Assembly: GCF_001625215.2 (NCBI RefSeq)
Contig: NC_030385.2
Span: forward strand, 43,053,598 to 43,117,597
Direction of reading: 5' to 3'
Source: Daucus carota subsp. sativus
Taxonomy: Eukaryota; Streptophyta; Magnoliopsida; Apiales; Apiaceae
DNA length: 64,000 bases
The translations under genes were made by a program, and so were the position numbers. Of the stretch, positions 10,948 to 36,130 are shown in pieces (position 1 is the first letter of the stretch; every line of letters starts with the position of its first letter). A model generated the notes under the pieces. That model was not told the DNA's origin. It worked only from the letters and a program-made list of their open reading frames with translations, and did not search any database.

Positions 10948-12680
10948 TCTACACCCTTCATTCCATAGTTCCATATGTACATCCCCGGAGTTTGTTTTAG
11001 GAAACACAGTGTCAACCAGTTTGTTCGGAGGCTCAACCTCCAAGTCCAAGCTTGAGTTGTTTTATCATTTTTCTTGGTTTTTAGAACTATAATGTAGCAC
11101 AAGGTATGCACTTGGCTTCATCTCTGCATAATAAAATGCCTACGTACGTTTGAATTCATATCCAAAGTTTAGAAAGCCCCCCAGAAAAAAAAGAGTTGGA
11201 CTTCTGGATTTCTTCTTTCTGGTGCAAGTTGAGAGAACACACCTGATTTTTGAAAAAAATAATTGTCGAAATGAAATAAACCAAGAATCGAGTAAAATAT
11301 TATATTGAAAATTACTATATTCAGATTCAAATCCAAAACAGGTGAAGAAACAAGTCTGAATTGAAAAAAAAACTTATAATGTAGTCTAACTCAATTTTGA
11401 TGGAGCTATGAACATTTTGCCTGGATTAATATTTTGAAATTTTTGGGAAGATTTTTGAATTAATTTTAAAACTAAGATTCTGAAAAGGGAGTAAAACATG
11501 AAGATTTATTTTAAAAGATTTATATATCTGGTATAGAAAGGGATAAAGGATTAAGATTTGTTAAGAAGTAAGTTTGGGAAAGGTAATCATAGATTTATAA
11601 AAAATTCTTTGAAGTAAATTTATTATGCTATTTAGAAAAAGGAAAGGATTAGTATATTCAAGTCGGGTTTTAATGGATCGGTAATAATCAATGCACAAAA
11701 TCTCATGGATTATGATGGAATTTCAAATAATATAAAATACACGAACAATCTCATAAAATTCATGCTATGAAGTTTAAAAAAAATCCAGCACCAAATATCA
11801 TGAGATTTTAATGGACTTTAATAATCTCAATTGAATACCATCAGATTTTTTTAAGTATAATTAAAATTTTAATTAAAAATCACTAGATTTTATTGGATAA
11901 TTTATTATTCTAATTGACTACCCCATGATTCTGATGCAATTTTTAAAATTTGAGTTGAATATACTAGGACTATGAATGAATTTCCTTTTTTAAAAAAAAA
12001 TCTCAATTGAATACCCCATATTTAATTCTAAAAGTAAGATTTATAGAAGGGAATAAAAGATTTAGGAAGCATTTTTCAAATAATTTTAAAGATAATGTTT
12101 AGGAGAAAAAATAAAAGATTGAGAGGATGTATTTAAAGGAAATAAAGTTGTTTTTTCTATTAAAACATTTTTCACCAATTTCTAATCTTAGATTAAGTGA
12201 TTTTGTTATTTTTTTACTTAATATATATTCAGTTTATTTCATTTGAGTCCGATCATAAATTTTGATGAGGTCCTATTATGGACCACTTTATACATAGACA
12301 ACTTCTCTCAAAAAAAGAAATGTTTTAAATCAATTTTAAATCGTATATTTAATTGAGATTTTAAATGTATGAAAATAGTGGGTGTATTTAATGAGGATTT
12401 TATATTATGCTACAAAATCTGGTGGTTAAAGATTAATTTTTTTTTTAAAATATATGATAATTAATTGGGATTGTTATAAATCCATCAAAATCTATTGGAG
12501 GGATTATACATTATATTTATACTTTTTGAATAATTTGTGCTTAGATCGTAAAGAATGTAAATCTACTCTTCACCATTTTATCAAAAATCTTTTAAAAATC
12601 AAAATCAAATACAATTTATTACAAAGATTAAAATCAATCTATTAAAAAAATTCTAGTCGAATACATCATTGATACTGCAC
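10948..12680. repeat. Convergent intergenic spacer made largely of decayed MITE-like sequence
   Basis: Only 3' flanks lie here, since the GTPase gene (+) and HD-ZIP gene (-) converge. Much of 11440-12672 consists of short related segments in both orientations that resemble GTATTCAATTGAGATTTT, the sort of terminus seen in PIF/Harbinger-type MITEs, but clean ends and target duplications cannot be set. The same spacer, diverged, is present at 23248-25240. Position 12519/12520 is the empty site matching the Helitron at 25638-31028. Confidence 0.5.
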
Positions 12681-15600
12681 CTAAGATGTTCCTGTGTTAG
12701 GGCCAACTACGCCCAAAGCCACCTTTATTTTTTGACATCTGTCTCTAACCATCTGTGCGAGGTGGAAAGCCCGTGCATCCATGTCCTCGGTCTGAGATTG
12801 ACTTATTACGAATTGATATGACAGTGAGAGAAGAGTTCCGCCGGAGCTTGAACCTTCTGTGCCCGATACAGGTCCAACCGGAAATATGGTGAAACCTGAA
12901 GGAACGAGAGCTATATAATCTGGATCTCCCCCATTTATCATCCAATTCATTGCCTGATTTTCGACAAGGCTAAACACGATATGTGATGCTACTGGATCAC
13001 TCCAACTTTCCTGCACTAGTAGCTTCTCCAGGTTCTGCAATTTTTCAATATTTAGTCGCAGTTTGATAATACTGTAACAAATAACAAAGATTTTTATATA
13101 CAAGTACTTACCGAAATTTTATATACGGTTACACCACTGCTACCTTCTTGGTCAAGAGGAGTGTGGTGTACCAGATCATATTCATTCCCCATTTTAAACA
13201 TGTCCCACTGTTGATCATCAAATATATGGATTCAGAATGAATGTCTTGTTATTAAGTAAATAATCTTCGACACTGAGATTTGAGACTCGACTAATGACAA
13301 ACAAAAAACTATGAAACAATCGTAGTACAAATATGCATACCTCCCATCGTTGTCTACTACTGCTGAAGAAATTGAAAACCATTTTAGGTGGAATTGGTAG
13401 AAAAAAAGAGCTGGAACCACTTAGCAGGGTGCCATGTGGTAGGCCAGGTTCGTCGATGACTCTTCTACTCATCAACTTCATGTTTGCACCAAAATTGCCC
13501 TGCAACTCAGTCCATTTACCAGCCTTTGGACCGGTAATCCCAACAAAGCAGTTGTTCACCATTCTCTCTGAGAGTTTCAGTATCGCGATTCTCCCTTCTC
13601 GATTTGACGACGTAACTGTGAAAAGACAATAATGTCATATCAAGAAAGCTATGAGACGTTATAAACATGCACATCAATTGCTTCAATACTAGCAAGTAAT
13701 ATATGCCTAAATAATTCAATTTTATGTTTACTCACCTAAATTGCTGAAGTCCGTTGATGGAACAATGGGGAAAATCGCAGCTGCAGAACGTCGACAATGT
13801 AAATGTAGAATTGACATCCATCTCTTGGCTCCAAATCCCAGACCCGAACGTAGTATGCCTTCACACATATTGCTCACATTATTACTTTCGGTACATACGT
13901 TCTCGATCCAAGTAACCTGTTAAATCACAACAATAATAGTAATCAGTTTAAGTAATATCTATACATAATATATCAAACTAAGCTGATAAGACTGTTATAA
14001 TACTTAATACAAAACCTTTTGAATTTGCCTACCTTTGAAGTTCCATCTGGCAATTCTTCTATCACGCAACCTGATGGCCTTTTTCGGCAGGTCGTGATTC
14101 CTGGAATGGGGAGTACATCGTCTACGGAAACATCAACCACTATCCACACCCCCGCACGATATTTTGTGCAATATCTTGCGAAATAGCATTCGCGTTTGGG
14201 GATCAATGGTAAGGGAATATGATATTCCGCCGTCATCTGAATTATAAATGCATAAATCATTGATAATTATTATATAGTTGCACATATGTGAGTTAAGAAT
14301 ATAGACTAAACAGATGTGTTATACCAGTTGAAGAGCTCCGTTAAAATCTTCTCCAACACTTAGAATGTCAAGTGTCAGAGCTCTGGCGACGATGGCCGAA
14401 AAGGTGGATGACCATTCATTCTAGTATCAAGAAAATCAAAGACTTAGATGATTATTATTGAATGATAATAATATATGTAAAATAAAAATAATAATATGTA
14501 ATACTCACAACATCCATGAGAACATTAAGCAGTTGTTTCGAGTGGATTGAGACCGTAGCTGTATGGCCCGAAGCTTCAAATATTAGCCTCCCAGTTGCGT
14601 TATCAGCACTGGCCGGACTCCGCCATGATTCCGCAACATTAGCCATAACTTTTAGCTCCTCCGCAGCTGAAAGTACAAGTTGTTCCACTCGTTGCCTTAA
14701 CGGAGCGGCTATATTGATTGAGTCCGCCGGATAATCACCAGCTACTGGTAATTTACGCTTTTTCGACTGTACACGAAAATTATTATAAAAAAAGTGAATA
14801 AATCGAGTGAGAACAATGTTTTAAATTGAAATTAATGTACAAAATTAATTTACCATATCTATATTTTGCACTTGCATGGGGTTGAGGTTACTTCCTTGGG
14901 AGAGTGGTCCTTTACCCCGACCAGCGTATTCCGATGTGTTTCTCTTTTGAGCTTCTTCACGCAGGTGCGCATTTTCAGCACGGAGCTTCGGAATCTGCGC
15001 ATTTTCAGCATGGAGCTTCTGAATCTCTAACCGTTGAGCCTCATAGTCAGGATATCCAGCGCGGAGCTTTTGGTTCTCTAACCGGAGAGCCTCCATTTCA
15101 GCGCGGACCTTCTTGCTCTCTATCTGACCAGCCTCCTTTTTTCCTCGTTCTCTTTGGCTCTACAGAATTTTGCATGATAGGTGATTTCAATGTGAGTAAA
15201 ATTGTTACAAATAACTTGTATACAAAGACTTTCAATTGAGGTGGAGGCATAATTAATGTAATAAAGAGGAAGCAAATACGTACCTTCTTTAGTTGACTGC
15301 GCTTGTTCTGAAACCAGACATTGACTTGTCCAGGGTTCAGCCCTATTCTCCTAGCAAGCTCCTTTCTTTGCTCCTCGTCAGGGTGCTGATTGTTGTTGAA
15401 GTAGCTACATTATAGACAAAAAAAAAAATTTAGAGTACAGTAGAATACAATGAAGGGTTTGTCTAGTGTGTTCCTGCACATTCTAAGCACTAAATTTTAT
15501 AGGTTTAGAACATTTTGATTGGTGTGGTTGTTGCATTTGCAGGGGGTCCACCATTATTAGAAAACAACAACCAATCAAAATGACTCAAACTTGTGAAATT

Positions 15601-16152
15601 TAGTGTTTAGCATGTGCCCATGGGAACCGTACAATGAAAACTAAGTTAAAGAGTGATGAGATGCTCTTACTCGTTCATCGCAACGACTTGCTGTTCAGTG
15701 TGCCTCTTGCTCCCTTTATAAGACTGAGAGGAGGAGCCCGGAGACGCAGCAGCCAAAGCATCAACAGCATCATGACCACCAAAATAACCAGCGGCAGACG
15801 CATCATAAGCAGTACCATAATTGGAAAAGGAACCACCGGCAGACGCAGCAGAAGCAGCTCCATAATTGGAAAAGGAACCACCGGCAGACACAGCAGAAGC
15901 ACCATAATTGGAAAAGGAACCACCGGCAGAAGCAGCTCCATAGCCAGCATAAACACCGCCAGCATACTCAGCATTATAGTCAACAAATGCACCACCAGGA
16001 GCAGCACAATAGCTCGGAAAACCAGCACCAAAAAAAGCAGCCGCTGCAGCGTCCTGATTAACAATTCCAGGCTGGTTCTGGCTGCTACCAACTCCGCTTG
16101 GGCCTGCTCCTTGTCGTCCTGTTTGCACGTTGTTGTTGTTGTTCATCTCCAT
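12681..16152 (-). CDS. HD-ZIP IV homeodomain-START transcription factor, copy A (divergent)
   Basis: This is a class IV homeodomain-leucine zipper protein, a family of nuclear DNA-binding regulators of epidermal and reproductive development. Ten coding exons (5' to 3', minus strand): 15671-16152, 15284-15404, 14854-15159, 14509-14766, 14325-14420, 14033-14236, 13736-13916, 13341-13615, 13112-13207 and 12681-13034, giving 790 residues in frame. An N-terminal Gly/Ser/Ala-rich region has three GGSFSNYG repeats. The homeodomain spans the first intron, with [20 protein letters not shown] and recognition helix [14 protein letters not shown] (WFQNKR instead of the class-typical WFQNRR). A Leu/Glu/Lys-rich coiled coil with repeated KLRAENA units follows, then START ([33 protein letters not shown]) and the SAD region to the C-terminus ([19 protein letters not shown]). 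A longer frame would begin at 16179, but an AG acceptor at 16161-16162 puts that ATG in an intron, so 16152 is preferred. It is more diverged than standard PDF2/HDG proteins, and no specific orthologue is assigned. Confidence 0.9.
15468..15628. mobile_element. Foldback MITE in HD-ZIP intron 1, copy A
   Basis: About 160 bp with imperfect inverted repeats of about 60 bp (GTGTTCCTGCACAT..CACTAAATTT against AAATTTAGTG..CATGTGCCC..GGAAC). The inner arms are TTTTGATTGG and CCAATCAAAA. It lies in the intron between the two homeodomain exons and is present at the same place in copy B, so it predates the copying. A relative is at 39550-39695. The target duplication is unclear. Confidence 0.6.
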
Positions 16153-16570
16153 TTTGATCTCTACATGCCATAATATCAAGTTGATACATTAGTTGCCGCG
16201 TTACTAATTTACTATACATGATATATTTCATTCACACAAGATACAGGGGAAAAGATGTTGTAAAAGCGCCGCAATGTTGAGTTCAAATAGATATGTAATC
16301 TTTACATACATCATAACATCTATATTAAAAAGGTAAAAATGGTACAATTTATTTTGTTGATATTGAAGATATATACTATCTTACATATACAATCAACCAT
16401 TGTTATAAGTATATTATTTACATCTTAATTTTTTGAAATAACTATCTGTATAAAATAGTTTCGAAAAAAATGAAATTATTTACCTTGAGAATTTAGAAAT
16501 AAATCTAGTTTACAAGATAAATTATTGTGTTTATAAAATTTTAACTATCAAATAAAATTGAAATAAACCG

Positions 16571-16781
16571 ATACACAATTATATGAGATTTTGACAGTAA
16601 AAATGATAATCATTTATAACAACACAAAAATTTTGAAAGTAAAAATTTAATCATCTATGATTAACAACACACAATGATACACAATTATATGAGATCTTGA
16701 CAGTAAAAATGATAATCATTTATAACAACACAAAAATTTTGAAAGTAAAAATGATAATCATCTATAATTAACAACACACAA
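16571..16781. repeat. Two-copy 106-bp tandem repeat in the probable leader intron of HD-ZIP copy A
   Basis: ATACACAATTATATGAGAT starts at 16571 and again, with one change, at 16677, each followed by matching sequence to the end of the unit. The same two units are in copy B at about 35079-35289. The repeat falls between the inferred leader exon (17447 to about 17505) and the coding start, so it is probably intronic. Confidence 0.8.
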
Positions 16782-16828
16782 TGAGACAACGTGTCTAAGT
16801 ATGAAACACATAAGGTGATGTCATAAAC

Positions 16829-17140
16829 CATGGATCACAAAACCCTACGCCCACAAACACATATAAAAAGCTCGTTATATGTCTTAAATTATGGATCACA
16901 AAACCCTATGCCTACAAACACATACAAAGGCGCGCCAAATTTATCAATCAAAAAATAATATAATTTCCTTATATTTCACAAAGCCCTACAATCACATATA
17001 CAAAGTACAAAGCCCTACAATCACATATACAAAAGCACGCCAAATTCATCGAAACCAATATGGATTTGTATATGAATCACAAAATTCATCGAAACCAGTA
17101 TGGATTTGTATATGAATCACAAAATCCTTCAAAATTCCGC
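16829..17140. repeat. Cluster of short direct repeats with AACCCTA-like motifs
   Basis: ATGGATCACAAAACCCTA is repeated near 16830 and 16890. AAGCCCTACAATCACATATA is repeated near 16980 and 17010. A 40-bp unit with TATGGATTTGTATATGAATC is repeated near 17050 and 17090. All are also in copy B. The AACCCTA-like cores resemble telo-box motifs, but no function can be inferred from sequence alone. Confidence 0.6.
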
Positions 17141-17446
17141 CTAGAAATCAAAATCACGTAAAAAAAATATAAAAACATGAATAATAAGAAGAAATAAATA
17201 ATTAAAACCGATGATATATACTATATAAATTTAATTAATCACAAAATTTCAGTTTTCTGACATGAAAATCACACAAGAATAACTAAAAACGTCTCTGTCT
17301 TTCATATTTTTGGGCTCCGAATGACAGTGTTTTATAATGTTAACACTGAAATTCATCATGATCCAATGAAATGAGCAAGCCATAAACATGAAAAATGAAA
17401 ATCAAATGCATGTGCAAATTTTGCACCCTGACAACATATAACTTAC

Positions 17447-17550
17447 ATAAAAATGAGAAAGCCGAGAAGAGAGTAAGCAATTTAAGCAACAATTGAGAAT
17501 GTGAGAAAATGCAGCAGGCAGTGATCCTCTATATATACAGGATCCAATGG
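17447..17550 (-). promoter_or_regulatory. Probable core promoter and leader exon of HD-ZIP copy A
   Basis: Read on the minus strand, CCATTGG (a CCAAT-like box) is followed at once by a TATATATAG box (17529-17540). About 30 bases on is a pyrimidine-rich leader that ends at the strong donor TTAT|GTAAGT (exon end 17447). An acceptor GCATGTAG just upstream of the coding ATG (exon resumes at 16160) would complete a leader intron of about 1.3 kb. This is inferred from motifs only; no transcript evidence is available. Confidence 0.55.
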
Positions 17551-19086
17551 TGAGGGGTACAATTTTTTGGACAAAATTATTCAAAAGCATGTATTGAAAA
17601 TCTTATATTCCAATCTAGAGAATTTTTCTGTTGAATATTCCTTTATTTCTATCACATTTATTGATTATTTCTTATATGTGATATTAATGTAATTAATTAA
17701 TTTGTTTAATATAAATAATGACACGTAATCATGTGATTTTTTACTTTTTACTTTTATAATTAAATTATCCACATTGACGTATGTTAGTTATATAATTTTT
17801 GTAACATGTCGTCATTTCTTAGAATATTAAAAATATAAATCCATGATAACAAATCATTATAACACCGTTATAAATTATAATTGATTATTTTATGATGAAA
17901 TTATTTAAAATCATTTGTCCATACCCAATAAATATTTGAAATTGTGTATTAGTCGTTACATTCTCTCGGATTCAAATTTGATTAAATTAAAAACAACAAA
18001 ATTCAGACAACATATATAAATATGATATATGTAAATTAGATCTTAATATTTTACATAAATAAGAGGAAAAAGAATAAAAATCAACAAAATCATGACAATA
18101 TCTTTTTCAAATCAACCAATAATATCGATTATTAAATTTATTCATGGGTCCCATAATAATAATGATTATAAAATTTATTTGTGGGTCCTATAAAAATAAG
18201 ATGTAAATAATTTATAATATTTTAATATAAGTATTACTCTCTCTATCCCATTTAATTTTATACCGTTCTTTTCAACTACTCGACACGCATTTCAGTAGTT
18301 TTATAGTCCGTAACTCAAGATTTTTCTATTCTAAATAAAAATTTAACATCCAAATTTTAATTCATAAAAAAAATTAAAAATAAATAACACAATTTTATTT
18401 TACAGAGTATTAAAGTCGTCCCGTCCCCAATATATATTATCCGGACGGAGGGAGTACTAAATAAATACTAGAATCCAGATGTTTTGATTATTAAACTTAA
18501 TTTGATTTTGTTTTAATATTTTGTTCTTCCAAAGATATATTGAGATTATGTGTATGTATATTTACTCTTGAATTTAATTTGGATTTTCTAATATTTTATT
18601 TTTCTAAATTTTATGTATTTTAGCTAAAGTTGAATCATATTTAATATTTCAAATCCAGCATAAATCCAAATTTATCAACTATTTTAATTATTTAAAATCT
18701 ATTTATATGATTATATTCAAGTCTTAGTATATCTACTACTAAAACTTGAATTATTAATCATATTAATAATATAATTTAAAGTGATTAAAATAATAAATAT
18801 TACGAAAATAATCTTTATACTATATGCTTAGAAAATTATAGTCTCATGGATGTGTATAAAAAATATGTCTTAAGAATATATATAAATTTAAATTTCTTTA
18901 ACATGGTTGATATTTAATTGTGTTATATTTTTTATTTCTTAATTATAGTTTTAACAATTTTTGTAAATAATTTTTTTAATGTTAACTCTATTTCATATTA
19001 ATCGCTTCCAATTGTGGTGCTCTGAACTTTGGTGCAATTTTCATAATCGTCTTATTACAAAGTTAATATCCAGGTGTTAAAATAAA
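17551..19086. other. Diverged upstream flank of HD-ZIP copy A
   Basis: AT-rich, no gene. It aligns with 36060-37716 upstream of copy B. The first 70 bases or so are nearly identical. From about 17625 there are frequent substitutions and indels. It contains the Stowaway-like element 18237-18454, shared by both copies. Confidence 0.7.
18237..18454. mobile_element. Stowaway-like MITE shared by both flanks
   Basis: Inverted termini CTCTCTCTATCCC and CCGGACGGAGGGAG are flanked by TA (18235-18236 and 18455-18456). A diverged version occupies the matching place at 36727-36907, so insertion came before the older duplication. Confidence 0.7.
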
Positions 19087-19250
19087 GAGGAATTATCTTG
19101 TATATTGTTTTTTCAATCTTATTTTCAAAAATACTACCTTCTCCAATCTTATTTTAAAATCTCTAAAATATTTTCAAAAATACTACCTTTTTGAAAATAT
19201 TTTCCAAAAATACGATGGTTGCATATGCAACCATATATGTAACTACAAAT

Positions 19251-19350: not shown

Positions 19351-19411
19351 AATTCAGTTGCATATATAGTTGCATATGGTTGTATTCAGTTGCATATGGT
19401 TGCATTCAATT

Positions 19412-20868: not shown

Positions 20869-20914
<46 letters not shown>

Positions 20915-21502: not shown

Positions 21503-22878
21503 GTTGAGAAACCTCGCGTTGCGGCGGCTTATAAAAATTATGTTAATGATTCAAAATTAATATTTGTAGTATAAAATAAATTTTATGTTAGAAAAATCTC
21601 GATGCAATACCAATATTAATATATATAATTATAAAATTGGACTATAATTTATGAGTAAAAAAATGAAAATAAATTTCTACATGTAATTAACGATTTAAAG
21701 CAACTTTTCAATAACTTACTAATTTATACCGATTGTTAGATCTTTATTTTTCCACCCGCCGTTGACAGTTTTGATGTCACCCACGTATGTCAAACAACCA
21801 ACAACATCTATATAATAATATAAATAGAGATAAAATAATATTATATACAAATCATGGAGTGAGATAGCGGTCTATAACTACCATTGCCTGCAACAATCTT
21901 TATTTTTTTTATACTGTATAAAAAGCATTCACTTAAAAACTTAAAAGGTGTTTAAACCGAGCAAACATATATTGTGGGAGTATTGCATGAATAATATTTT
22001 CCTATACACAAAATAAACCATATAAAAATCAACAACAACAAATATGTCCGATGAACAAAACAAATATTATAAAATAATAATGAACAAACATATATCACTA
22101 TCATCCATCAATATCATGTCAAGAATATATTGTTCCCCGGTATTTGGATTTGTAGACTCCGACATCCGACAGACTCTTACTCTCATCAGACAATCATCTC
22201 TATCGTCATTCAAAACTTCGTGTATACAAAGTAAATCATATAAAAATTAATAACAACAAACATGTCTGATAAACAAAACAAATATTACAAAAGAATAAAT
22301 AACAAACATATATCACTAACAGTTAATTTATTGATATCATCCATCAATATCATGTCAAGATTATATTCTTTTCCCGTGTTTGGATTTGTCGACTCCCACA
22401 TAGCGGTCTATAACTACCTTAGTTTGCAATAACCTTTATTTTTTTAATACTGTATAAACAGCATTCACTTATCGTTGCAGAAAAACGGCACCACTGAGTT
22501 AGAAATCGAGCAAGAACTATCATCAGAGAGAGGTAGGGTTATGGTATTGAGAGAGAGGAGGTTGTGTTTAGATGATCCAAAACCCTACAACCTACGGGGT
22601 ATTTATAGATGCAGAGAGACTTGTGTGCTCCTCTTTCGCATTATTAAATAATCAGAAACAAAATCAGATTAAAACTTTCAAGTTACTATATTCCATATAT
22701 AATCTGAAACAAAATCAGATTCTGAAACTTGCTTTTAATATATCGAAACTAAAAAAGGTAGTTTTAATTTTTTAATATTTTTCATCCAAAAACTCCAAAA
22801 AATTAGAAAAATAGAACGAAGCGATGTGAGAGGCTCCACATACACGCCCCTCGCTTCTCCTTTATATAAGTATATTGA
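21503..22878 (-). mobile_element. Non-autonomous Helitron-like element in the duplicated GTPase intron
   Basis: It interrupts the copy of GTPase intron 4, which is continuous in copy A. Read on the minus strand it starts TCAATATACTTATATAAAGG, as does the element at 38217-38980. It ends in a GC-rich hairpin (about 21515-21530 on the plus strand) followed by a short tail, as Helitrons do, although the terminal CTRR is not clear. It contains an RPA-like remnant (about 22089-22216) and an internal duplication of about 220 bp (segments near 22030 and 22250). Confidence 0.65.
22089..22216 (-). pseudogene. RPA1-like (DUF223-type) Helitron protein fragment
   Basis: The minus-strand reading contains DDRDDCLMRVRVCRMSEST, then NTGEQYILDMILMDD. 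This corresponds to the N-terminal part of the replication-protein-A-like proteins carried by plant Helitrons (usual pattern RVCRMWES then LDMILMDEKG). The same peptide pattern is at 38600-38740. No complete gene is present, so it is a decayed remnant of the mobile element's own gene. Confidence 0.55.
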
Positions 22879-22903
22879 TGATTTAATTAAAGTGTATCTG
22901 CAG

Positions 22904-23247
22904 AGCGCAATGCCAGTACTAGTCGGAACCAAATTTGATGATTTTGTCCAGTTACCACTAGATCTGCAATGGACAATCGCTAATCAGGTAATGACTGCAA
23001 AATCAATTAGCCTATTTGGTTTCATCTGTATGTGGATTTGAAATAATATTCCGGTTTACTTGATGGCTTGCAAATCGAATAGGCAAGAGGCTATGCAAAG
23101 GTACTGAATGCAACGCTATTCTTCTCAAGTGCCAACTACAACATTAACGTGAACAAGATTTTCAAGTTCATTGCTGCAGAGCTCTTCAACTTACCCTGGT
23201 CCATAGAGCGTAATTTGACTATTGGAGAGCCGATCATTGATTTTTAG
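22904..23247 (+). pseudogene. Truncated SGP1-like GTPase copy, exons 5 and 6 only
   Basis: The exon at 22904-22987 is identical over all 84 bases to exon 5 of the upstream gene. The exon at 23083-23247 matches exon 6 with about four substitutions (two of them amino-acid changing: Ala to Val and Lys to Glu). Splice sites and stop are intact, but exons 1-4 with the P-loop are missing, and the preceding intron is interrupted by a Helitron-like element. It cannot encode a working GTPase by itself. High conservation against a diverged spacer suggests that it was part of an intact gene after the duplication. Confidence 0.88.
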
Positions 23248-23677
23248 TCTACACCCTTCATTCCATAGTTCCATGTGTATATCCCCGGAGTTTGTTTTAG
23301 GAAACACAGTGTCAACCAGTTTGTTCTGAGGCTCAGCCTCCTAGTCCAAGCTTGAGTTGTTTTATCATTTTTCTTGGTTTTTAGAACTATAATGTAGCAC
23401 AAGGCAAAGCACTTGGCTTCATCTCTACAACAGTAATAAAATGCCTACGTTTGAATTTATATTCAAAGTTTAGAGAGCCGCTCCAGACCGAAAGAGTTGG
23501 ACTTCTGGATTTCTACTTTCTGGTGAAAGTTGAAAGGACACACCTGATTTTTGAAAAATATAATTGTCGAAATGAAATAAACGAGTAAAAATATTATGTT
23601 GAAATTTACTATATTCAGATTCAAATCCAAAACAGGTGAAAAAAACAAGTCTTGATTGAAAAAAAACCTTTAATATA

Positions 23678-23906
23678 CTCTCTCTGTCTGTTTTTAGTTG
23701 TCACATTTTTTTTCTTTTGACCAAAGATTATAAATCACTCTTTCACTATTTTAAAAAACGAAAAATTACATCTATCAAGAGTTATTTCCCGTGACATATT
23801 TTTTTTATTTTTTCAATTAATAAAATATTAATTAAATTCAATCAAAATTTGATTAATTTGACTAGTACAAATCCAAAGGTGACTAACCAAAATGAGACGG
23901 AGGGCG
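23678..23906. mobile_element. Stowaway-like MITE in copy C only
   Basis: Termini CTCTCTCTGTCTG and GAGACGGAGGGCG are flanked by TA. The copy A spacer lacks this block, so it inserted after the older duplication. Confidence 0.65.
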
Positions 23907-25246
23907 TAGTACATGGACTATATTATTTTAAAATTTTTGTGAAGATTTTTGAATTAATTTTAAAAATAAGATTAGAAAAGGGAGTAGAACATGAAGATTT
24001 ATTTTAAAAGATTTTATTTCAGGTATAGACAAAGGTATAAAGGGTTAAGATTTATTTGGAAGTAAGATTTAGAAAGGTAATCATAGAGTTATCAAAATTC
24101 TTTGAAATAAATTTATGATAATATTTAGAAATAGGAAAGGATTAAGATCATAACTCGGATTTTAATGGATTGGTAATAGTTTATAGATTTTAATAAATTA
24201 TATCTGATTTTAATTTTATACGGATTCTTGAATATACAAAATCTCATGAATTATGATGGAATTTCAAAAAGTATGACATACACCGAACAATCTCATAAAA
24301 TTCATCATGTTATGAAGTTCAAAAATATTCAGTATTGAATATCACGAGATTTTAATAATCTCAATTGAATATCATCAGATTTTTACATATATAATTAATA
24401 TTTTAATTGAATACCACTATATTTTATTGAATAATTAAAAGTCCTAATTGACTAATCCAAGATTCTGATACAATTTTTAAAATTAGAATTGAATATACCA
24501 CAATTTTTAAAATTAGAGTTGAATATACCAGGATTATGAATGAATTTTTCTTTTAAATCTCAATTGAATACGAAATATCCCTGTTTAATTCTTAAAGTAA
24601 GATTTATAGAAGGGAATAAAAGATTTGGGAAGCATTTTTAAAATAATTTTAAACATAATGTTTAGGAAAAAGAATAAAAGATCAAGGGGTGTATTCGGAG
24701 GAAGTAATTTTTTTTTTATTGAGACATTTTTTTCACCAATTTTCAATTTTAGATTAAGTGATATCGTCATTTTTTTCTTAATATGAATTCGGTTTATTTC
24801 ATTTGAGTCGGATCATAAATTTTGATGTGGACTACTTTATACACAGACAACTTCTCTCGAAAATGGAAAATTTTAAAATTAATATTAGACCGTGTATTTC
24901 GATTGAAATTTTAAATGCATGAAAATATTAGTCGTATTTAATTGAGATTTTATATTATGTTACAAAATCTATTGATATTCATTAAAGATTTTAAATTTTG
25001 CCTAAAAAACTATGATATCTAAGTGGGATTGTTTTCAATCCATCGAAATCATTTGGCGGGATTATAATTTTAAACTTTTTGAAATCTTGTGCTTGAATTC
25101 TAAAGAATTAACAACTCTGTCGTGCTTTATCAAAAATCTATAAAAAATCAAAATCAAATACAATTTATTAAGATACATAGATTAAAAACAATCTATTTTT
25201 TTTTTGAATAAAATCCAACTTGAATACACCTCCTTAATACTGCACC

Positions 25247-25592
25247 CTAAGATGTTCCTGTATTAGCGCCAACTGCACCCAACGCCAGCTTTATTTTTTG
25301 GCATTTTTCTCTCACAAACTGTGCGAGGTGAAAAGCCCGTGCATCCACGTCCTCGGTCGGAGACTGACTTATTACAAATTGATAGGACACTGTAAGAAGA
25401 GTTCCGCCGGAGCTTGAACCTTCTGTGCCCGATACAGGTCCAACCGGAAATATGGTGAAACCTGAAGGAACCAGAAGTATATAATCTGGATCTCCCCCAG
25501 ATATCATCCAATTCATTGCCTGATTTTCGACAAGGCTAAACACGATATGTGATGCTACTGGATCACTCCAACTTTCCTGCACTAGTAGCTTC
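25247..25592 (-). pseudogene. HD-ZIP IV C-terminal exon remnant (copy C)
   Basis: This is the last coding exon of an HD-ZIP IV gene, with an open frame and a stop at the same place as copies A and B. It is cut off at its 5' end about eight bases inside the exon, so the splice acceptor and all upstream exons are gone. About 12 of 114 residues differ from copy A (for example MISGGDPDYILLVPSG against [16 protein letters not shown]), with no frameshift or stop. This fits a paralogue that stayed under selection before it was truncated. The homeodomain and START domain are absent, so it is not functional alone. Confidence 0.88.
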
Positions 25593-25606
25593 AATATCAA
25601 CAATAT
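25593..25606. other. 14-bp filler at a duplication junction
   Basis: AATATCAACAATAT joins the broken copy C exon (ends 25592, matching 13026) to sequence identical to 12489 onward. It matches neither parental segment at that point, which is what a templated or untemplated filler at an end-joining or template-switch junction looks like. Confidence 0.7.
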
Positions 25607-25844
25607 AATCTATTGGAGGGATTATACATTATATTTACTAGGATTTTTTGCCCGCTACGCATGGGTAGAGAGATGATTTTTTTCGTAAAATTAATTGTGA
25701 CCAAATTCTCGAAAATACTATTTGTTTTAAATTTTTTATTTTACTATTTAAACCTTTTTTTTAATATAAAAGGTGTAGAGTTGATTTGAGATGGGAGTCA
25801 ACTTCGTTTCTCTTCCCTTATTGTCTCTAACAAATGTTATTGTA

Positions 25845-26018
25845 CTAAGTGCTATTTGCCCCATCTTGCAAAACTGAATGGGAGAGTTCTTCTACAGCTT
25901 CAGTAAAAATTATCTTTTGATAGTCTTCTTCACGGCCAATGGCTCGGTTCTCTGCTTTCCAAATGAAATTGGCCAAAGTGCTGAGTCGTGTTGATAGTGT
26001 TGTGGACTCGCTTCGCAT
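25845..26018 (-). pseudogene. Unrecognised 57-codon open fragment inside the Helitron
   Basis: An uninterrupted minus-strand frame contains TLANFIWKAENRAIGREEDY and ends EELSHSVLQDGANST. The composition is that of real protein rather than AT-rich noise. It lies near the element's 3' end, where Helitrons often carry captured host exons. I do not recognise the family. It is most likely the C-terminal exon of a captured gene. Confidence 0.35.
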
Positions 26019-27574
26019 GGTTATATGTTTTAATTTTTTATATATTTATTATAATAATTATATTAAATTTTTGTATATTTATATCTAAATTTATTAATGC
26101 ACACCAAAATTTTATTTAGACTTTATACCGTTTTCTTAAAAATTAAGAATAATTTGATTAAAAAGTAAGAATAGAAAATACATAAATAAATTTAAACTGT
26201 GCATGTAGCAGCATCCTAATTTTAATATTTATTCAAAATATATTAGTATGAAAAAATATGCATATAGTAAATTATAATTAATACTTTTATTTAAAATTAT
26301 TTATTAGTGATGATAAAAATAATGATTATTAATATAAGATAATCTCTTAGTTTAAAATATATAATTGATTTAATGTAAATTAAGTTATGATATATTTCTC
26401 ATGTGCCCCTTTCAAAATATATAGGTTATTTAAGTAATAATATTATGAGATTAACAAATCAGTAATTTTTTATAAAGCAAAATTGACTATTCATGCATAA
26501 CTATTATACAGAGGTTCCTCGGCATGGCTGGGCAGCCATACCTCGGTTTTCAAATATATATATTTTAAATATTATTATGATTTTTAATAAACATAATTAT
26601 AAAAAGGTTTCTCGGCCGAGCGGCCATACCTCGATTTTTAAATAGGTATATTTTAAATATTATCATGATTTTAACTTATAAATTTACAAAACTATATAAA
26701 TTAATAAAAATTATATTTAAAATTATATTTTTAAAGAAGATTTCAATTATATAGTATATACTTAATTTTCAAACTATATTTATAAAATTACATAACTACT
26801 TGAAATAGATGTTTAAATTTTAATAAGTGACATGTACAAAATATATTTATCATTATAAGCGTCAAATTCGAGTTAACATACTATTAACAGAGATAATGAT
26901 ATGATAAATATTGTTCTATAAATATATGAACATTATTATGCCAAACGGCCAAAGAAGAAAATTTATTTGTATTAAACCCTTGGCTGTCGGTGAGATTACA
27001 AAATTCTTGTATTTCCGTCCGCATTAACTCTAATAATTCATCAGATAGTTTGCCTGTGTGTAAATCAACCAAGTTACTAATAGTAACATATCAAAACAAC
27101 ACTTGTACATTAACGTAAACCAACATAATAGTAGAGTCTGTTTTAACAATGACATACCGCAACTGCTTGAACAATGACATAACACAACTGTTAAGATATA
27201 TTTATCTTATGTACTTCAATCTTCTATAAGCTTCCTCTCTTCCTACATTAACTGACTAATAAATATTGACTACAGCTAATCACACCCTCAAAGCAACTGG
27301 ATCTTGCTATGAGATCTTTCTCTTTACCGCACGATAGGAACCGTGTCCAACATTTCTACATAGAGATAACTTCAACTCAGATAGCTTGTCTTGCCTTGCC
27401 ATCTCACAATTACCCTGTATTCCTCTTCTTCTACCTGCCAAATTTCAAACAAAAGAATAACAGAATGCAACTATTCCAGTTTGCCACCATGTACAACAAT
27501 ACAATAACTTATTTTGTCATGCAAAATATAACCTGATAACTTACCAATCTCTGGTTCAAGTCAAAAACAGGAGC

Positions 27575-28073
27575 TTAAGTTTGGTCTGTGGGTTGTTTAA
27601 CATCAGTTTCAGTTAAATCAAGAACAGAAGCTGGGGTATGCATAGTCACAGCTACACCATTTGCATTAAATGCTTCTTCCCGCTTGTTCAAATCAATCAT
27701 CTTTATTAGACTTTGATAAGGAGCTACAGCTTTTCCTTGTATAACCCTTCTTTTGGGTTTAAATTTGAGGTTTTCGGATTAAAGCAAGTTCATTCTTTCC
27801 ACTGTGATGTTTTCTTTTATGGTTTGGATCATTGCTTGGAGTTGTATTCTGATGGGAAACATCATTTCTTCCATATACTCGTACTTTGTTCGGTTTAAAA
27901 AATAAGGGCACATACAAACCTCTTAAAGCAGCCTCTTTCTTGTTGGTATTTTTAACTTTCAAAATAATTTTCCTTTTATCTTCTACATTATGTTGTTGAA
28001 CAGGTTCCTTTCCCCGCTCTTGGGTCATAGACTTGCTTTCTATAAGTTGCATGTATCTTCGGCTCTTCGCCAT
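27575..28073 (-). pseudogene. Unrecognised captured-gene fragment with a frame change
   Basis: One minus-strand frame opens at an ATG at 28073 (MAKSRRYMQLIESKS) and runs 104 codons to a stop at about 27759. A second, overlapping frame continues to 27575 (contains APYQSLIKMIDLNKREEAF, ends TDVKQPTDQT). Together they read like one protein of mostly charged, low-hydrophobic composition, broken by a frameshift or by a small intron I cannot place. Family unknown. Confidence 0.35.
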
Positions 28074-28140
28074 AGAAATCTGAACATATATGAAAACTTA
28101 TTGAAAATCACTTACAATTGGATTAGGTACATCGTCTTAC

Positions 28141-28259
28141 TTGCACATCATCCATGGGACACCAGTTTTAAGGCCTACAACCATGCTTGAGAACCATTTT
28201 GTATAAGATTTTCCTGGAGTACCTATTTTCCATTCTATCGGACCATATTCATCCTCAAT
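28141..28259 (-). pseudogene. Exon-like fragment inside the Helitron
   Basis: This 119-nt segment is bounded by TGTGCAG (acceptor side) and GTAAGA (donor side). It is open throughout and encodes [20 protein letters not shown] followed by [18 protein letters not shown]. The residue make-up and flanking splice signals suggest an exon of a captured host gene. The family is not recognised, and the phase to the neighbouring fragment is not resolved. Confidence 0.4.
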
Positions 28260-29808
28260 CTGCACAACATAATCATCAAATCGAAAAAAAGGTCAATCTC
28301 TTTTACTAATTGCAAGTTAACAAAATATTAAACTCGTGATTCAATTTATTAAAAAAAAGTTTTAGGACCTGAGACATGATAATCGGTCCACCCTAGGGTC
28401 CAAATAACATGTTCAAATTCATCATGTTGACAATCATATCAGTAAAATATTGCATTTCCGCTTATGTTTCACATTAGTCAAAATTAGTAAACAATCAGAA
28501 GTGAAGAGAAGTGATAAATTTCATATTCTTGGATATTCGATCTACTGCATCAAAACTGAACATAAAACAAAAAGAACAATCCACATCAGAAGATGAGATC
28601 ATTATATCAGAACATAAACACGAAATATGTCAAGAAAATAATGTAAAATGAAGTATAATCAACTGAAGTTGGAAATTGGAATTCCAATAAACAAATATGC
28701 ACGCCTCTATGTCATACGTGTTGCCGTATATAATATTGTTTTTTTTATTTTTTATTTCAGAAATGCAAGTGGCCAATACAACATTGATAGGCCAGCAGAG
28801 AGCATTTTATAAAACTATAGACAACCAACCAACTCTGATCTAGGAGCTTATTAAATGCAATAACTTCGAAATTATAGTGTTAGGATATCAAGGACTAAAT
28901 ACTTTAACATAATATCACACATTTGGGTCAGAAAAGAAAACTTAAAAATTTTATATTATCTTATCACAGATACGATATCTATAACCTGGAAGTAACACCA
29001 GCCTTTTACTTTGTTGCCAAAAGCACTGTTGAATCTGCAGATCAACATATATACGAAACATTAGTGATCATTATGGAATGTGTACATGCTACAGTTGCAT
29101 TAAACACATACATAACCTTATATGCCGACCGCTGATGTCTAGGAAAGTAAAATCTGTTGCTTTAGTGCATCCTTAAAGTCCAGATCATTTTCCACATTGT
29201 TTTATTTCATAAAAAATATATCAACTCTCCACAGTGCTTTCTCATGATATTTTCCAGCGCCAAAATTTCAATCTAAACATCATTGTTACTTAAATATCAA
29301 ATACAAACACCGCATAATATTAAAAATTAAAATCAGAATGAAAACTAATAACAATAATAAGTCACAGAAGTCTGAATACTTAATTTAGTACATGAAGCCA
29401 TGTACATATAAGAACCTGTAACACTGGTCCAAGTTCAATTTCTACAGAGAACTAATGAACAATATCTCGGTATCATCATGGCTTCCCAAAATTTGAATTT
29501 AAGACATCACATAAAATTAAAAATTAATAAAAGAATCATAACACAATGATGATAAAAATAAAAATATTTCAATGAAGCATTTTATCAAACAGTTGGTGAA
29601 TATAAATAAAACTCACAAACTCTAGACATATTTCAATTAATAATAAATGAAGTTACAAAAAATCACCTAGGCTTGTGGCAGAATGAAATCTTCAGACAAA
29701 CACATCCTCCTTAACTGTAACTACACACCCAACAATATTTCACTTGAAGAGCTTGCATAATCTATTATAAATTAGGTTAAATCAGTGAACAAAAGTTGTT
29801 TATAGTAC

Positions 29809-30054
29809 CATGCTCGTCTTCCTCAAGCATCAAATCTTCAATAGTATATGGAAGCTTGGGTTCTTTGTTCTCCATCATGGATAAATCGTGGCTAACTACA
29901 TAAGCAATGAAATTTGTAAACAGTAAAAAGAGCCAACTCAATCAACCAAGAAGATTATAAGAAAAGTCGAGCGACTTACAAACATTGTACTGGATGGTGG
30001 TTGTTGAATACCTAGATCACCATAGTCTTTTCGAAGCTCCATTGTTCGATTCAT
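29809..30054 (-). pseudogene. Two candidate 5' exons of a captured gene inside the Helitron
   Basis: 29980-30054 starts with ATG and encodes MNRTMELRKDYGDLGIQQPP with five more residues before a GTAAGT donor. 29809 to about 29878 encodes MMENKEPKLPYTIEDLMLEE with three more residues before a GT donor. Both are open, but the phase of the simplest splice between them does not fit, so the exact structure is uncertain. No known domain is recognised. Confidence 0.3.
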
Positions 30055-31189
30055 TCGCGTGCAAGTTTGTGAGAGGCGGCAATTTGAATTTTTAAGCAAA
30101 TTGATTCATCACAGATTTGAAAAGATATTAGGTTTGGTACTATAGATGTAATGGTTTCTTAATCAGGCGACACGTTTACGAAATGAACGGTGGATTACTG
30201 CAGTTGTTGGTAAGATAGCTGGAGACACAGTCACCTGCTTTTTTTATTCTGTAATGTAACACGTGTGTAAGTCTGAAACTGAAAGTAGAGATCGTATTTA
30301 GGCAGTGGCATGTGATCACCGGTAAATCTTATTTTCTTTTTTCTTTTTGTAATAAGACACTAAATCTTATTTCTATATTATCATATTTTTATTCGTAAGT
30401 GTTCTATGAAAAAAAAATATTATAATATATAAATATGTGTCAAAAACATTTATCAAATTAATATATTTATAAAAATGTTTATTATTTATTTGAAATTTTT
30501 ACCTTCTCAACACATTTTTCGAGGTATCTATTTGATATTTTATACGACTTTAGTGATCAAAATGATACCACTAAAAAACCAATGAAAAAAGTGATACATG
30601 TCATTTACATCGGTGACCAACTTGATATTTAACCCTATTTATAAAATATATAACTTTTTACTGAACATAGTTATGTTCCAAAATAATTATATAAAAATTT
30701 AAAATAATTTTATATCAAATTGCATTCATTCTTTTGAGTGAATAAAAATAAATTTTATTTCAAATCATGCTAAAAATATTTATTTTGAAATATTTTTTTT
30801 TCCAAAAAATTATCATAATAAACATCATATTTACATAATAAAAATAAAATGCACGACAAAATAAATAAATTAGCATTTTAATAAATAAATGAATGACGTA
30901 GTATTTAATATTTCATCACCCACCTGAACAAATTTCACAATATAAATATAATTGTAAAATATATTAATTAATTTACGTATATATTGTACTCGGAAAAATC
31001 TGTATCCGAAAAAATGGATATAAATAGATACTTTTTGAATAATTTGTGCTTAGATCGTAAAGAATGTAAATCTACTCTTCACCATTTTATCAAAAATCTT
31101 TTAAAAATCAAAATCAAATACAATTTATTACAAAGATTAAAATCAATCTATTAAAAAAATTCTAGTCGAATACATCATTGATACTGCAC

Positions 31190-34100
31190 CTAAGATGTTC
31201 CTGTGTTAGGGCCAACTACGCCCAAAGCCACCTTTATTTTTTGACATCTGTCTCTAACCATCTGTGCGAGGTGGAAAGCCCGTGCATCCATGTCCTCGGT
31301 CTGAGATTGACTTATTACGAATTGATATGACAGTGAGAGAAGAGTTCCGCCGGAGCTTGAACCTTCTGTGCCCGATACAGGTCCAACCGGAAATATGGTG
31401 AAACCTGAAGGAACCAGAGCTATATAATCTGGATCTCCCCCATTTATCATCCAATTCATTGCCTGATTTTCGACAAGGCTAAACACGATATGTGATGCTA
31501 CTGGATCACTCCAACTTTCCTGCACTAGTAGCTTCTCCAGGTTCTGCAATTTTTCAATATTTAGTCGCAGTTTGATAATACTGTAACAAATAACAAAGAT
31601 TTTTATATACAAGTACTTACCGAAATTTTATATACGGTTACACCACTGCTACCTTCTTGGTCAAGAGGAGTGTGGTGTACCAGATCATATTCATTCCCCA
31701 TTTTAAACATGTCCCACTGTTGATCATCAAATATATGGATTCAGAATGAATGTCTTGTTATTAAGTAAATAATCTTCGACACTGAGATTTGAGACTCGAC
31801 TAATGACAAACAAAAAACTATGAAACAATCGTAGTACAAATATGCATACCTCCCATCGTTGTCTACTACTGCTGAAGAAATTGAAAACCATTTTAGGTGG
31901 AATTGGTAGAAAAAAAGAGCTGGAACCACTTAGCAGGGTGCCATGTGGTAGGCCAGGTTCGTCGATGACTCTTCTACTCATCAACTTCATGTTTGCACCA
32001 AAATTGCCCTGCAACTCAGTCCATTTACCAGCCTTTGGACCGGTAATCCCAACAAAGCAGTTGTTCACCATTCTCTCTGAGAGTTTCAGTATCGCGATTC
32101 TCCCTTCTCGATTTGACGACGTAACTGTGAAAAGACAATAATGTCATATCAAGAAAGCTATGAGACGTTATAAACATGCACATCAATTGCTTCAATACTA
32201 GCAAGTAATATATGCCTAAATAATCCAATTTTATGTTTACTCACCTAAATTGCTGAAGTCCGTTGATGGAACAATGGGGAAAATCGCAGCTGCAGAACGT
32301 CGACAATGTAAATGTAGAATTGACATCCATCTCTTGGCTCCAAATCCCAGACCCGAACGTAGTATGCCTTCACACATATTGCTCACATTATTACTTTCGG
32401 TACATACGTTCTCGATCCAAGTAACCTGTTAAATCACAACAATAATAGTAATCAGTTTAAGTAATATCTATACATAATATATCAAACTAAGCTGATAAGA
32501 CTGTTATAATACTTAATACAAAACCTTTTGAATTTGCCTACCTTTGAAGTTCCATCTGGCAATTCTTCTATCACGCAACCTGATGGCCTTTTTCGGCAGG
32601 TCGTGATTCCTGGAATGGGGAGTACATCGTCTACGGAAACATCAACCACTATCCACACCCCCGCACGATATTTTGTGCAATATCTTGCGAAATAGCATTC
32701 GCGTTTGGGGATCAATGGTAAGGGAATATGATATTCCGCCGTCATCTGAATTATAAATGCATAAATCATTGATAATTATTATATAGTTGCACATATGTGA
32801 GTTAAGAATATAGACTAAACAGATGTGTTATACCAGTTGAAGAGCTCCGTTAAAATCTTCTCCAACACTTAGAATGTCAAGTGTCAGAGCTCTGGCGACG
32901 ATGGCCGAAAAGGTGGATGACCATTCATTCTAGTATCAAGAAAATCAAAGACTTAGATGATTATTATTGAATGATAATAATATATGTAAAATAAAAATAA
33001 TAATATGTAATACTCACAACATCCATGAGAACATTAAGCAGTTGTTTCGAGTGGATTGAGACCGTAGCTGTATGGCCCGAAGCTTCAAATATTAGCCTCC
33101 CAGTTGCGTTATCAGCACTGGCCGGACTCCGCCATGATTCCGCAACATTAGCCATAACTTTTAGCTCCTCCGCAGCTGAAAGTACAAGTTGTTCCACTCG
33201 TTGCCTTAACGGAGCGGCTATATTGATTGAGTCCGCCGGATAATCACCAGCTACTGGTAATTTACGCTTTTTCGACTGTACACGAAAATTATTATAAAAA
33301 AAGTGAATAAATCGAGTGAGAACAATGTTTTAAATTGAAATTAATGTACAAAATTAATTTACCATATCTATATTTTGCACTTGCATGGGGTTGAGGTTAC
33401 TTCCTTGGGAGAGTGGTCCTTTACCCCGACCAGCGTATTCCGATGTGTTTCTCTTTTGAGCTTCTTCACGCAGGTGCGCATTTTCAGCACGGAGCTTCGG
33501 AATCTGCGCATTTTCAGCATGGAGCTTCTGAATCTCTAACCGTTGAGCCTCATAGTCAGGATATCCAGCGCGGAGCTTTTGGTTCTCTAACCGGAGAGCC
33601 TCCATTTCAGCGCGGACCTTCTTGCTCTCTATCTGACCAGCCTCCTTTTTTCCTCGTTCTCTTTGGCTCTACAGAATTTTGCATGATAGGTGATTTCAAT
33701 GTGAGTAAAATTGTTACAAATAACTTGTATACAAAGACTTTCAATTGAGGTGGAGGCATAATTAATGTAATAAAGAGGAAGCAAATACGTACCTTCTTTA
33801 GTTGACTGCGCTTGTTCTGAAACCAGACATTGACTTGTCCAGGGTTCAGCCCTATTCTCCTAGCAAGCTCCTTTCTTTGCTCCTCGTCAGGGTGCTGATT
33901 GTTGTTGAAGTAGCTACATTATAGACAAAAAAAAAATTTAGAGTACAGTAGAATACAATGAAGGGTTTGTCTAGTGTGTTCCTGCACATTCTAAGCACTA
34001 AATTTTATAGGTTTAGAACATTTTGATTGGTGTGGTTGTTGCATTTGCAGGGGGTCCACCATTATTAGAAAACAACAACCAATCAAAATGACTCAAACTT

Positions 34101-34660
34101 GTGAAATTTAGTGTTTAGCATGTGACCATGGGAACCGTACAATGAAAACTAAGTTAAAGAGTGATGAGATGCTCTTACTCGTTCATCGCAGCGACTTGCT
34201 GTTCAGTGTGCCTCTTGCTCCCTTTATAAGACTGAGAGGAGGAGCCCGGAGACGCAGCAGCCAAAGCATCAACAGCATCATGACCACCAAAATAACCAGC
34301 GGCAGACGCATCATAAGCAGTACCATAATTGGAAAAGGAACCACCGGCAGACGCAGCAGAAGCAGCTCCATAATTGGAAAAGGAACCACCGGCAGACACA
34401 GCAGAAGCACCATAATTGGAAAAGGAACCACCGGCAGAAGCAGCTCCATAGCCAGCATAAACACCGCCAGCATACTCAGCATTATAGTCAACAAATGCAC
34501 CACCAGGAGCAGCACAATAGCTCGGAAAACCAGCACCAAAAAAAGCAGCCGCTGCAGCGTCCTGATTAACAATTCCAGGCTGGTTCTGGCTGCTACCAAC
34601 TCCGCTTGGGCCTGCTCCTTGTCGTCCTGTTTGCACGTTGTTGTTGTTGTTCATCTCCAT
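31190..34660 (-). CDS. HD-ZIP IV homeodomain-START transcription factor, copy B
   Basis: This is a nearly exact duplicate of the gene at 12681-16152. Exons (5' to 3', minus strand): 34179-34660, 33793-33913, 33363-33668, 33018-33275, 32834-32929, 32542-32745, 32245-32425, 31850-32124, 31621-31716 and 31190-31543. It encodes 790 residues. All splice sites and the reading frame are intact. The only residue difference I found from copy A is Ala for Val in the homeodomain start (EQQVAAMN against EQQVVAMN, from one base at 34192). A synonymous change lies in the last exon. Homeodomain, coiled coil, START and SAD regions are as in copy A. The core promoter and leader intron were copied too, but the sequence upstream of about 36130 is diverged, so expression could differ. 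The Helitron at 25638-31028 ends about 160 bp past its stop codon. Confidence 0.9.
33976..34136. mobile_element. Foldback MITE in HD-ZIP intron 1, copy B
   Basis: Same element as at 15468-15628, with one substitution seen near the right end (GTGACCATGGG instead of GTGCCCATGGG). Confidence 0.6.
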
Positions 34661-35954
34661 TTTGATCTCTACATGCCATAATATCAAGTTGATACATTAG
34701 TTGCCGCGTTACTAATTTACTATACATGATATATTTCATTCACACAAGATACAGGGGAAAAGATGTTGTAAAAGCGCCGCAATGTTGAGTTCAAATAGAT
34801 ATGTAATCTTTACATACATCATAACATCTATATTAAAAAGGTAAAAATGGTACAATTTATTTTGTTGATATTGAAGATATATACTATCTTACATATACAA
34901 TCAACCATTGTTATAAGTATATTATTTACATCTTAATTTTTTGAAATAACTATCTGTATAAAATAGTTTCGAAAAAAATGAAATTATTTACCTTGAGAAT
35001 TTAGAAATAAATCTAGTTTACAAGATAAATTATTGTGTTTATAAAATTTTAACTATCAAATAAAATTGAAATAAACCGATACACAATTATATGAGATTTT
35101 GACAGTAAAAATGATAATCATTTATAACAACACAAAAATTTTGAAAGTAAAAATTTAATCATCTATAATTAACAACACACAATGATACACAATTATATGA
35201 GATCTTGACAGTAAAAATGATAATCATTTATAACAACACAAAAATTTTGAAAGTAAAAATGATAATCATCTATAATTAACAACACACAATGAGACAACAT
35301 GTCTAAGTATGAAACACATAAGGTGATGTCATAAACCATGGATCACAAAACCCTACGCCCACAAACACATATAAAAAGCTCGTTATATGTCTTAAATTAT
35401 GGATCACAAAACCCTATGCCTACAAACACATACAAAGGCGCGCCAAATTTATCAATCAAAAAATAATATAATTTCCTTATATTTCACAAAGCCCTACAAT
35501 CACATATACAAAGTACAAAGCCCTACAATCACATATACAAAAGCACGCCAAATTCATCGAAACCAATATGGATTTGTATATGAATCACAAAATTCATCGA
35601 AACTAGTATGGATTTGTATATGAATCACAAAATCCTTCAAAATTCTGCCTAGAAATCAAAATCACGTAAAAAAAATATAAAAACATGAATAATAAGAAGA
35701 AATAAATAATTAAAACCGATGATATATACTATATAAATTTAATTAATCACAAAATTTCAGTTTTCTGACATGAAAATCACACAAGAATAACTAAAAACGT
35801 CTCTGTCTTTCATATTTTTGGGCTCCGAATGACAGTGTTTTATAATGTTAACACTGAAATTCATCATGATCCAATGAAATGAGCAAGCCATAAACATGAA
35901 AAATGAAAATCAAATGCATGTGCAAATTTTGCACCCTGACAACATATAACTTAC

Positions 35955-36058
35955 ATAAAAATGAGAAAGCCGAGAAGAGAGTAAGCAATTTAAGCAACAA
36001 TTGAGAATGTGAGAAAATGCAGCAGGCAGTGATCCTCTATATATACAGGATCCAATGG
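35955..36058 (-). promoter_or_regulatory. Probable core promoter and leader exon of HD-ZIP copy B
   Basis: Identical to 17447-17550: CCAAT-like box, TATATATAG box and leader exon ending at a GTAAGT donor. The near-identity with copy A ends about 70 bases upstream of this unit. Confidence 0.55.
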
Positions 36059-36130
36059 TGAGGGGTACAATTTTTTGGACAAAATTATTCAAAAGCATGT
36101 ATTGAAAATCTTATATTCCAATCTAGAGAA

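Follow-up and report, generated by a model that had tools for sequence, protein, structure and literature searches.

A carrot HD-ZIP class IV gene probably overwritten from its tandem neighbour by one-sided homologous copying closed by end joining

Results and Discussion

Organisation of the locus

We considered a window of 64,000 nucleotides on chromosome 5 of carrot, Daucus carota subsp. sativus (C5:43053598-43117597), which contains two tandem units carrying the HD-ZIP class IV genes called here A (unit 1) and C (unit 2). Gene C is almost identical to gene A while the surroundings of both keep an older divergence, and we propose that C was probably overwritten by copying from A. The window belongs to a single assembly of 441,086,747 bases in 11 contigs, which was also the genome searched; the features are collected in Table 1.

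The exon models of A and C were built by inspection, with GT-AG at the internal borders. The predicted protein carries a Homeodomain (residues 150-201), a START domain (371-531) and a PDF2_C domain (556-780), in the order of class IV and all above the Pfam cut-offs. A zipper-loop-zipper following the homeodomain defines HD-ZIP class IV; Pfam at E 0.01 returned nothing between residues 201 and 371, and no zipper model was run. C differs from A at two coding sites: one is V157A, which falls within the homeodomain matched by Pfam, and the other is silent. The 1.47 kb upstream of the ATG of C is also A-type, and C has its own sequence only from 36131 onward. A 113-bp tandem duplication is present upstream of the gene in both copies, at 16570-16788 (A) and 35078-35296 (C).

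The copied tract in C includes a full last exon (31190-31543), and sited beyond this new gene is the last exon of an older C gene, an orphan that has lost its acceptor and 8 bp. An earlier note on this DNA, made from the sequence alone, had supposed that all but the last exon of C was replaced; instead, the tract brings the last exon of A with it and leaves the old one behind as a duplicate.

Table 1. Features of the HD-ZIP IV locus, in positions of the window
Feature	Position	Strand	Remarks
HD-ZIP class IV gene A	12681..16152	-	model, 10 coding exons, 790 aa, open frame
HD-ZIP gene C	31190..34660	-	model, 10 coding exons, 790 aa, open frame; differs from A at 2 coding sites
Donor tract in A	12489..17622	+	whole HD-ZIP coding region with 192 bp past the stop codon and 1.47 kb ahead of the ATG
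Recent copy, left 31 bp	25607..25637	+	letters identical to A 12489-12519
Recent copy in C, main part	31029..36130	+	near-identical to A 12520-17622
Filler at the left junction	25593..25606	+	14 bp; absent from the corresponding place in A and in L036-L038
Likely filler template	16351..16364	-	13/14 bases; 19/20 counting the flanking CTTC and AA; upstream of gene A
Orphan last exon of the older C gene	25247..25592	-	PDF2_C match; cut 8 bp inside its 5' (acceptor) end
Helitron-like insert within the recent copy	25638..31028	-	5391 bp; both flanks A-type; empty site A 12519/12520
Unit 1, old left homology	10566..13026	+	includes HD-ZIP 3' end; BLAST to 22868-25592 in two stretches, 91% and 79%
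Unit 2, old left homology	22868..25592	+	ends at the junction; BLAST and identity profile
Unit 1, old right flank	17623..19086	+	BLAST and identity profile
Unit 2, old right flank	36131..37716	+	homologous junction 36130/36131

An abrupt identity step between the copies

Using a global alignment of 12300-20100 to 30850-37760, read in windows of 100 columns, and a BLAST of the window against itself, we compared the two units. Between A 12520-17622 and C 31029-36130, 8 substitutions were found over 5102 compared sites (0.0016), at A positions 12906, 13716, 15617, 15683, 16659, 16791, 17096 and 17138, together with one 1-bp indel at 15418. To the right, identity drops at 17623/36131, and over 17631-19080 the flank differs from that of unit 2 at 133 of 1367 sites, a Kimura two-parameter (K2P) distance of 0.105. 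At the rate of this flank the tract should show about 496 differences, and the probability of 8 or fewer has a log10 of -209. The best single change point, in a run on 12520-18280, falls at 17645, with 17614-17714 within 2 log-likelihood units, and its likelihood ratio over a flat profile is 190.

These results agree with the earlier note, which had counted about eight bases and one poly-A length over 5.1 kb, had seen an older and diverged upstream flank on the right, and had proposed an identity plot in 100-bp windows in which a flat profile would speak against overwriting. The note had also taken 12489 as the start of the recent tract, beyond a Helitron-like insert, and we find the same: 25607-25637 repeats 12489-12519 and the tract resumes at 31029. 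The identity step around the HD-ZIP IV gene is thus real. Purifying selection was rejected as its source, because of the 8 differences 6 fall in the 2730 noncoding bp of the tract and 2 in its 2373 coding bp; the noncoding part is nearly as unchanged as the coding part, whereas the noncoding flank is about 10% different.

On the left, the older homology begins at about 10566/22868 and not at 21460, as had been thought, and the label of GTPase given to the exons on this side was not confirmed: for the exons submitted, Pfam yielded a sub-threshold AAA_24 match only (E 0.011) and nothing at 0.01. Divergence here is clear but uneven, with K2P from 0 to 0.38 in windows of 100 columns, excluding the non-aligning windows at 10500 and 11376.

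Adjoining the left edge of unit 2, a high-copy repeat (22217-22880) occurs in dozens of places on C1-C9, mostly 88-91% alike, and an inverted relative of it lies at 38216-38865, just past the right edge of this unit. The window contains a further direct duplication of about 1.4 kb, 49920-51314 against 51977-53387, with 79% identity.

The left seam and its filler

The two ends of the recent copy are of different kinds. At the right junction, 17622/36130, collinear paralogous sequence lies on either side. At the left junction, the old unit 2 stops at 25592, the equivalent of A 13026, and after the filler the recent copy opens at 25607, the equivalent of A 12489, so that unit 2 has two versions of the 538 bp 12489-13026, one diverged and the other fresh. 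This non-homologous junction reads CTTC-AATATCAACAATAT-AATCTATTGG, with the filler between the old end and the A sequence, and occurs nowhere else exactly in the window.

We searched the window for exact matches covering at least 8 bases of the filler and found, at 16354 in A and again at 34862 in the copy, a 15-base inverted match to the filler region. The 20-mer made of the filler with CTTC and AA matches 16349-16368 on the minus strand with one mismatch, and the copy of the template in C lies at 34859-34872. At up to 3 mismatches, the window holds this site, its copied duplicate and the junction itself only, while in 100 shuffles of the 20-mer the mean number of matches was 0.00 with 1 mismatch allowed and 0.08 with 3. 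Among 3000 fillers, exact matches of at least 15 bases were obtained in the whole window for 0.8% (Markov) or 2.9% (shuffled), and in the donor tract for 0.07% and 0.23%. The filler was therefore probably templated, in inverted orientation, by the donor tract.

Direction of copying and relatives on chromosome 2

A 11427-13026 is collinear with 23921-25592 as a single BLAST stretch that crosses 12489. Collinearity with A also extends across 13026, as far as the preceding exons, in three loci of chromosome 2 (L036, L037 and L038); in L037 one BLAST stretch (12010-13679) spans 12489 too. Since A, and not C, is collinear over both left breakpoints with the old unit 2 and the chromosome-2 paralogues, these alignments show that the arrangement of A is ancestral and the seam in C derived, the copying having gone from A to C. 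Copying from C to A was ruled out, since older copies on both chromosomes share the collinear arrangement of A. Polarisation was possible for two of the 8 differences, with the orphan exon at 12906 and with L036 at 13716, and the derived base was in A both times.

The 3' part of the HD-ZIP gene was found in at least 39 places on chromosome 2 (18.389-18.415 and 20.390-21.081 Mb), all on the plus strand and 81-89% identical; this count is a lower bound, as only the best 40 candidates were scored, and some of the places are 1.5 kb apart. Eighteen of these loci were fetched with flanks of 1.5 kb only (L036-L053), and 11 of them also carry sequence of unit 1, from 11090-11227. None of the 113 homeodomain matches of the genome falls in these regions, so that it was a homeodomain-less fragment of the HD-ZIP module that was amplified there. 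The loci seem not to be simple copies of unit 2, because the 11 with left-unit sequence begin at 11090-11098 of unit 1 and unit 2 begins at about 10566. Elsewhere in the genome, C1:42878309-42914476 holds 12 homeodomain matches in 36 kb, several of them equal-scoring and about 7.6 kb apart, and appears to be another homeobox tandem array.

The Helitron-like insert

The insert that interrupts the recent copy lies between an A and a T, has no target duplication, and ends in CTAG on its minus strand, in agreement with the CTRR 3' end of Helitrons, which are further marked by a hairpin close to this end and, in autonomous members, by a Rep-helicase. A shorter relative at C9:14071008-14072586 (L010, L013) shares the CTAG end to the base and matches the insert in three main pieces (97.6, 99.5 and 97.1%), its other end diverging after GGATAT. 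Because the flanks on both sides are A-type, the insert arrived after the copying, and the nested Helitron is thus dated as the younger of the two.

Proposed mechanism and its alternatives

We consider it probable that gene C is the product of one-sided homologous copying from A, of the type of synthesis-dependent strand annealing (SDSA), completed by end joining of the polymerase-theta kind. An old tandem duplication would have given the two units, each with an HD-ZIP gene. Much later, a break or gap would have occurred in the HD-ZIP gene of unit 2, and its right end would have paired with the homologous place in unit 1, at about 17622. Repair synthesis would then have run leftward for 5.1 kb through gene A, leaving the last exon behind and stopping 192 bp after the stop codon. 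Instead of annealing at the matching place on the left, the new strand would have detached and been joined, by end joining, at a point 8 bp into the last exon of the old C gene, after its end had gained 14 bp copied inverted from 16351-16364, which provided a GAAG/CTTC match. Viewed on the minus strand, the new strand would end in ...AATAGATT and be extended to ...TTGTTGATATTGAAG, the GAAG of which would pair with CTTC at the old end. The outcome would be a C gene that is A-type throughout, with the orphan last exon of the older C behind it, and the Helitron would have inserted later, 31 bp from the seam. The identity step, the direction from A to C, the two junctions, the match of the filler and the later arrival of the Helitron are read directly from the sequence; the break, the direction of synthesis, the singleness of the event and the part of polymerase theta are what we infer.

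As for the filler, a templated insertion with microhomology, such as theta end joining leaves, is seen in its 13 of 14 matching bases with CTTC and AA. Tentatively, it could be a footprint of the new strand itself: after 5.1 kb of leftward synthesis this strand may have switched to its own complementary strand or to that of the donor, 3.9 kb back, and copied 14 bp inverted, thereby gaining the GAAG match before it was joined to the old end. We give this somewhat less than an even chance; if true, one natural locus would record the pairing, the length of synthesis, the template switch and the joining of a single repair that re-created an entire regulatory gene together with its proximal upstream region.

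The same final structure could be reached in two steps, in which misaligned chromatids would be end-joined into a 13.1-kb tandem duplication with the junction 25592/12489, and homologous recombination of the new A copy with the old C near 17622/36131 would delete what lay between. Such a route accounts equally for the junctions and for the doubling of the 538 bp, and finds for its second step paralogous flanks about 90% alike; however, it needs two events, and self-matches of at least 80 columns at E of 1e-10 or below revealed no remnant second copy of the flank of A or of the left part of unit 2, although on this route none need be left. We hold it to be rather unlikely, and prefer a single repair event because there are precedents for its parts in the incomplete gap repair of Drosophila and in the templated fillers of theta end joining in Arabidopsis. 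That the older C gene body was deleted beforehand, and the gap filled from A by the same repair only later, the overwritten sequence being already gone, would fit with only the ends of that gene being visible; there is no direct trace either way, and we give this variant a slight probability. The earlier note had spoken of gene conversion or break-induced copying, and of this the non-allelic copying from A to C stands. In favour of a classical conversion of C by A with both junctions homologous, there are the homologous right junction and the sharp, near-identical tract between paralogues with diverged flanks (8/5102 against 133/1367). It is contradicted by the left seam, where the old exon, the 14-bp filler and A sequence from 538 bp further left follow each other: this junction is non-homologous and 538 bp are duplicated, so that the recipient is not collinear on both sides, and ordinary two-sided conversion seems to us very improbable.

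An artefact of assembly, whether from reads of A misplaced into unit 2 or from a chimeric contig, is made conceivable by the near identity of the copies, which nevertheless differ at 8 sites; moreover, C has the Helitron and A does not, the filler junction is confined to its one place in the window, and flanks diverged by about 10% or more argue against a simply duplicated haplotype. If the assembly is that of the doubled-haploid reference, duplicated haplotypes would not be expected. We consider an artefact improbable. The Helitron lies only 31 bp from the seam, which could suggest that it carried the gene to C. It stands, however, inside sequence that is A-type on both sides, at a site that is uninterrupted in A, and the right junction of the tract is homologous; this leaves the idea a negligible probability.

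Several points weigh against the repair event that we favour. It is reconstructed from one assembly, and the two-step route leads to the same final structure. Polarisation of the differences is thin, since neither base at 12906 is found in the chromosome-2 copies (A in L036, a gap in L037) and L037 is unaligned at 13716. The filler match and the 20-mer were picked after viewing the junction, and the window-wide chance of 0.8-2.9% is only moderate. Finally, the template is 3.9 kb from the seam, whereas fillers, in the account of PMC10923293, often map to the immediate flank.

Ages of the duplication and of the copying

Comparison of the orphan exon with exon 10 of A gave 0.148 synonymous substitutions per synonymous site (Ks) over 81.7 sites, with 0.103 in the 87 codons nearest the seam and 0.314, from few sites, in the remainder. 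With substitution rates of 7e-9 to 1.5e-8 per site per year, the copying from A to C can be placed, roughly, at 52,000-112,000 years ago (Poisson limits 23,000-221,000), and the divergence of the right flank at some 3.5-7.5 million years. Because the left side has diverged unevenly, one age for all of the old unit is only an approximation. The Ks of the orphan exon and the K2P of the flank (0.105 against 0.0016 in the tract) bear out the order of events that had been proposed before, an old tandem duplication and a far more recent non-allelic copying from A to C.

We do not claim a second conversion, of intermediate age, in the orphan exon. Between 12765 and the seam, 24 informative sites against 11 join A with the old exon to the exclusion of L037, compared with 72 against 194 further left (Fisher p 2.8e-6, for a boundary at 12765 picked post hoc). 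The near-seam Ks of 0.103 is like the divergence of the right flank, and L037 is possibly unconstrained; for the same reason we judge weak the lack of differences in the last 62 aligned bases before the seam.

Relation to known systems

One-sided invasion repair in plants, leaving one homologous and one non-homologous junction, was reportedly described by Puchta in 1998 in an experimental system; the carrot case differs in being deduced from a genome. In Drosophila, the repair of P-element gaps can begin as SDSA that stays incomplete and is then closed by end joining, and the same work reports templated insertions for alternative end joining (PMC2895639). The likeness to the carrot locus lies in one-sided homologous copying that ends in end joining and in the templated insertion; unlike that assay, the carrot case would be a natural evolutionary event in a plant gene, with an ectopic tandem paralogue as template and a filler template inverted and 3.9 kb off. 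Theta-mediated end joining in Arabidopsis, according to PMC10923293, gives templated fillers from the flanks or from other nearby DNA, with microhomology. Microhomology and a short copied filler are also seen in carrot, where dependence on the enzyme would be by analogy.

The gene conversion described in the rice genome is a non-reciprocal copying between duplicated genes (PMC2277409), from which the carrot locus differs by a left end that is non-homologous and creates a duplication. Repair after transposon excision in rice leaves fillers of 13 bp on average, and SDSA is named there as the source of copied foreign segments (PMC4423477); the carrot filler is of similar length, but a trace of excision is not part of the evidence at this locus. 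In the library searched we found no paper on tandem duplication of HD-ZIP IV genes with gene conversion or on tandem HD-ZIP START genes of carrot, although the locus may still have been published.

Conclusions

The process is already known, and the carrot locus is a well preserved and legible natural example of it. It allows one to see, at the level of single bases, how a plant tandem duplicate can be reset to near identity while its surroundings keep an older divergence. As the tract has a distance of 0.0016 and the right flank one of 0.105, a date for the duplication taken from the gene alone would here be about 67-fold off. The locus also offers a testable natural case of mixed homologous and end-joining repair.

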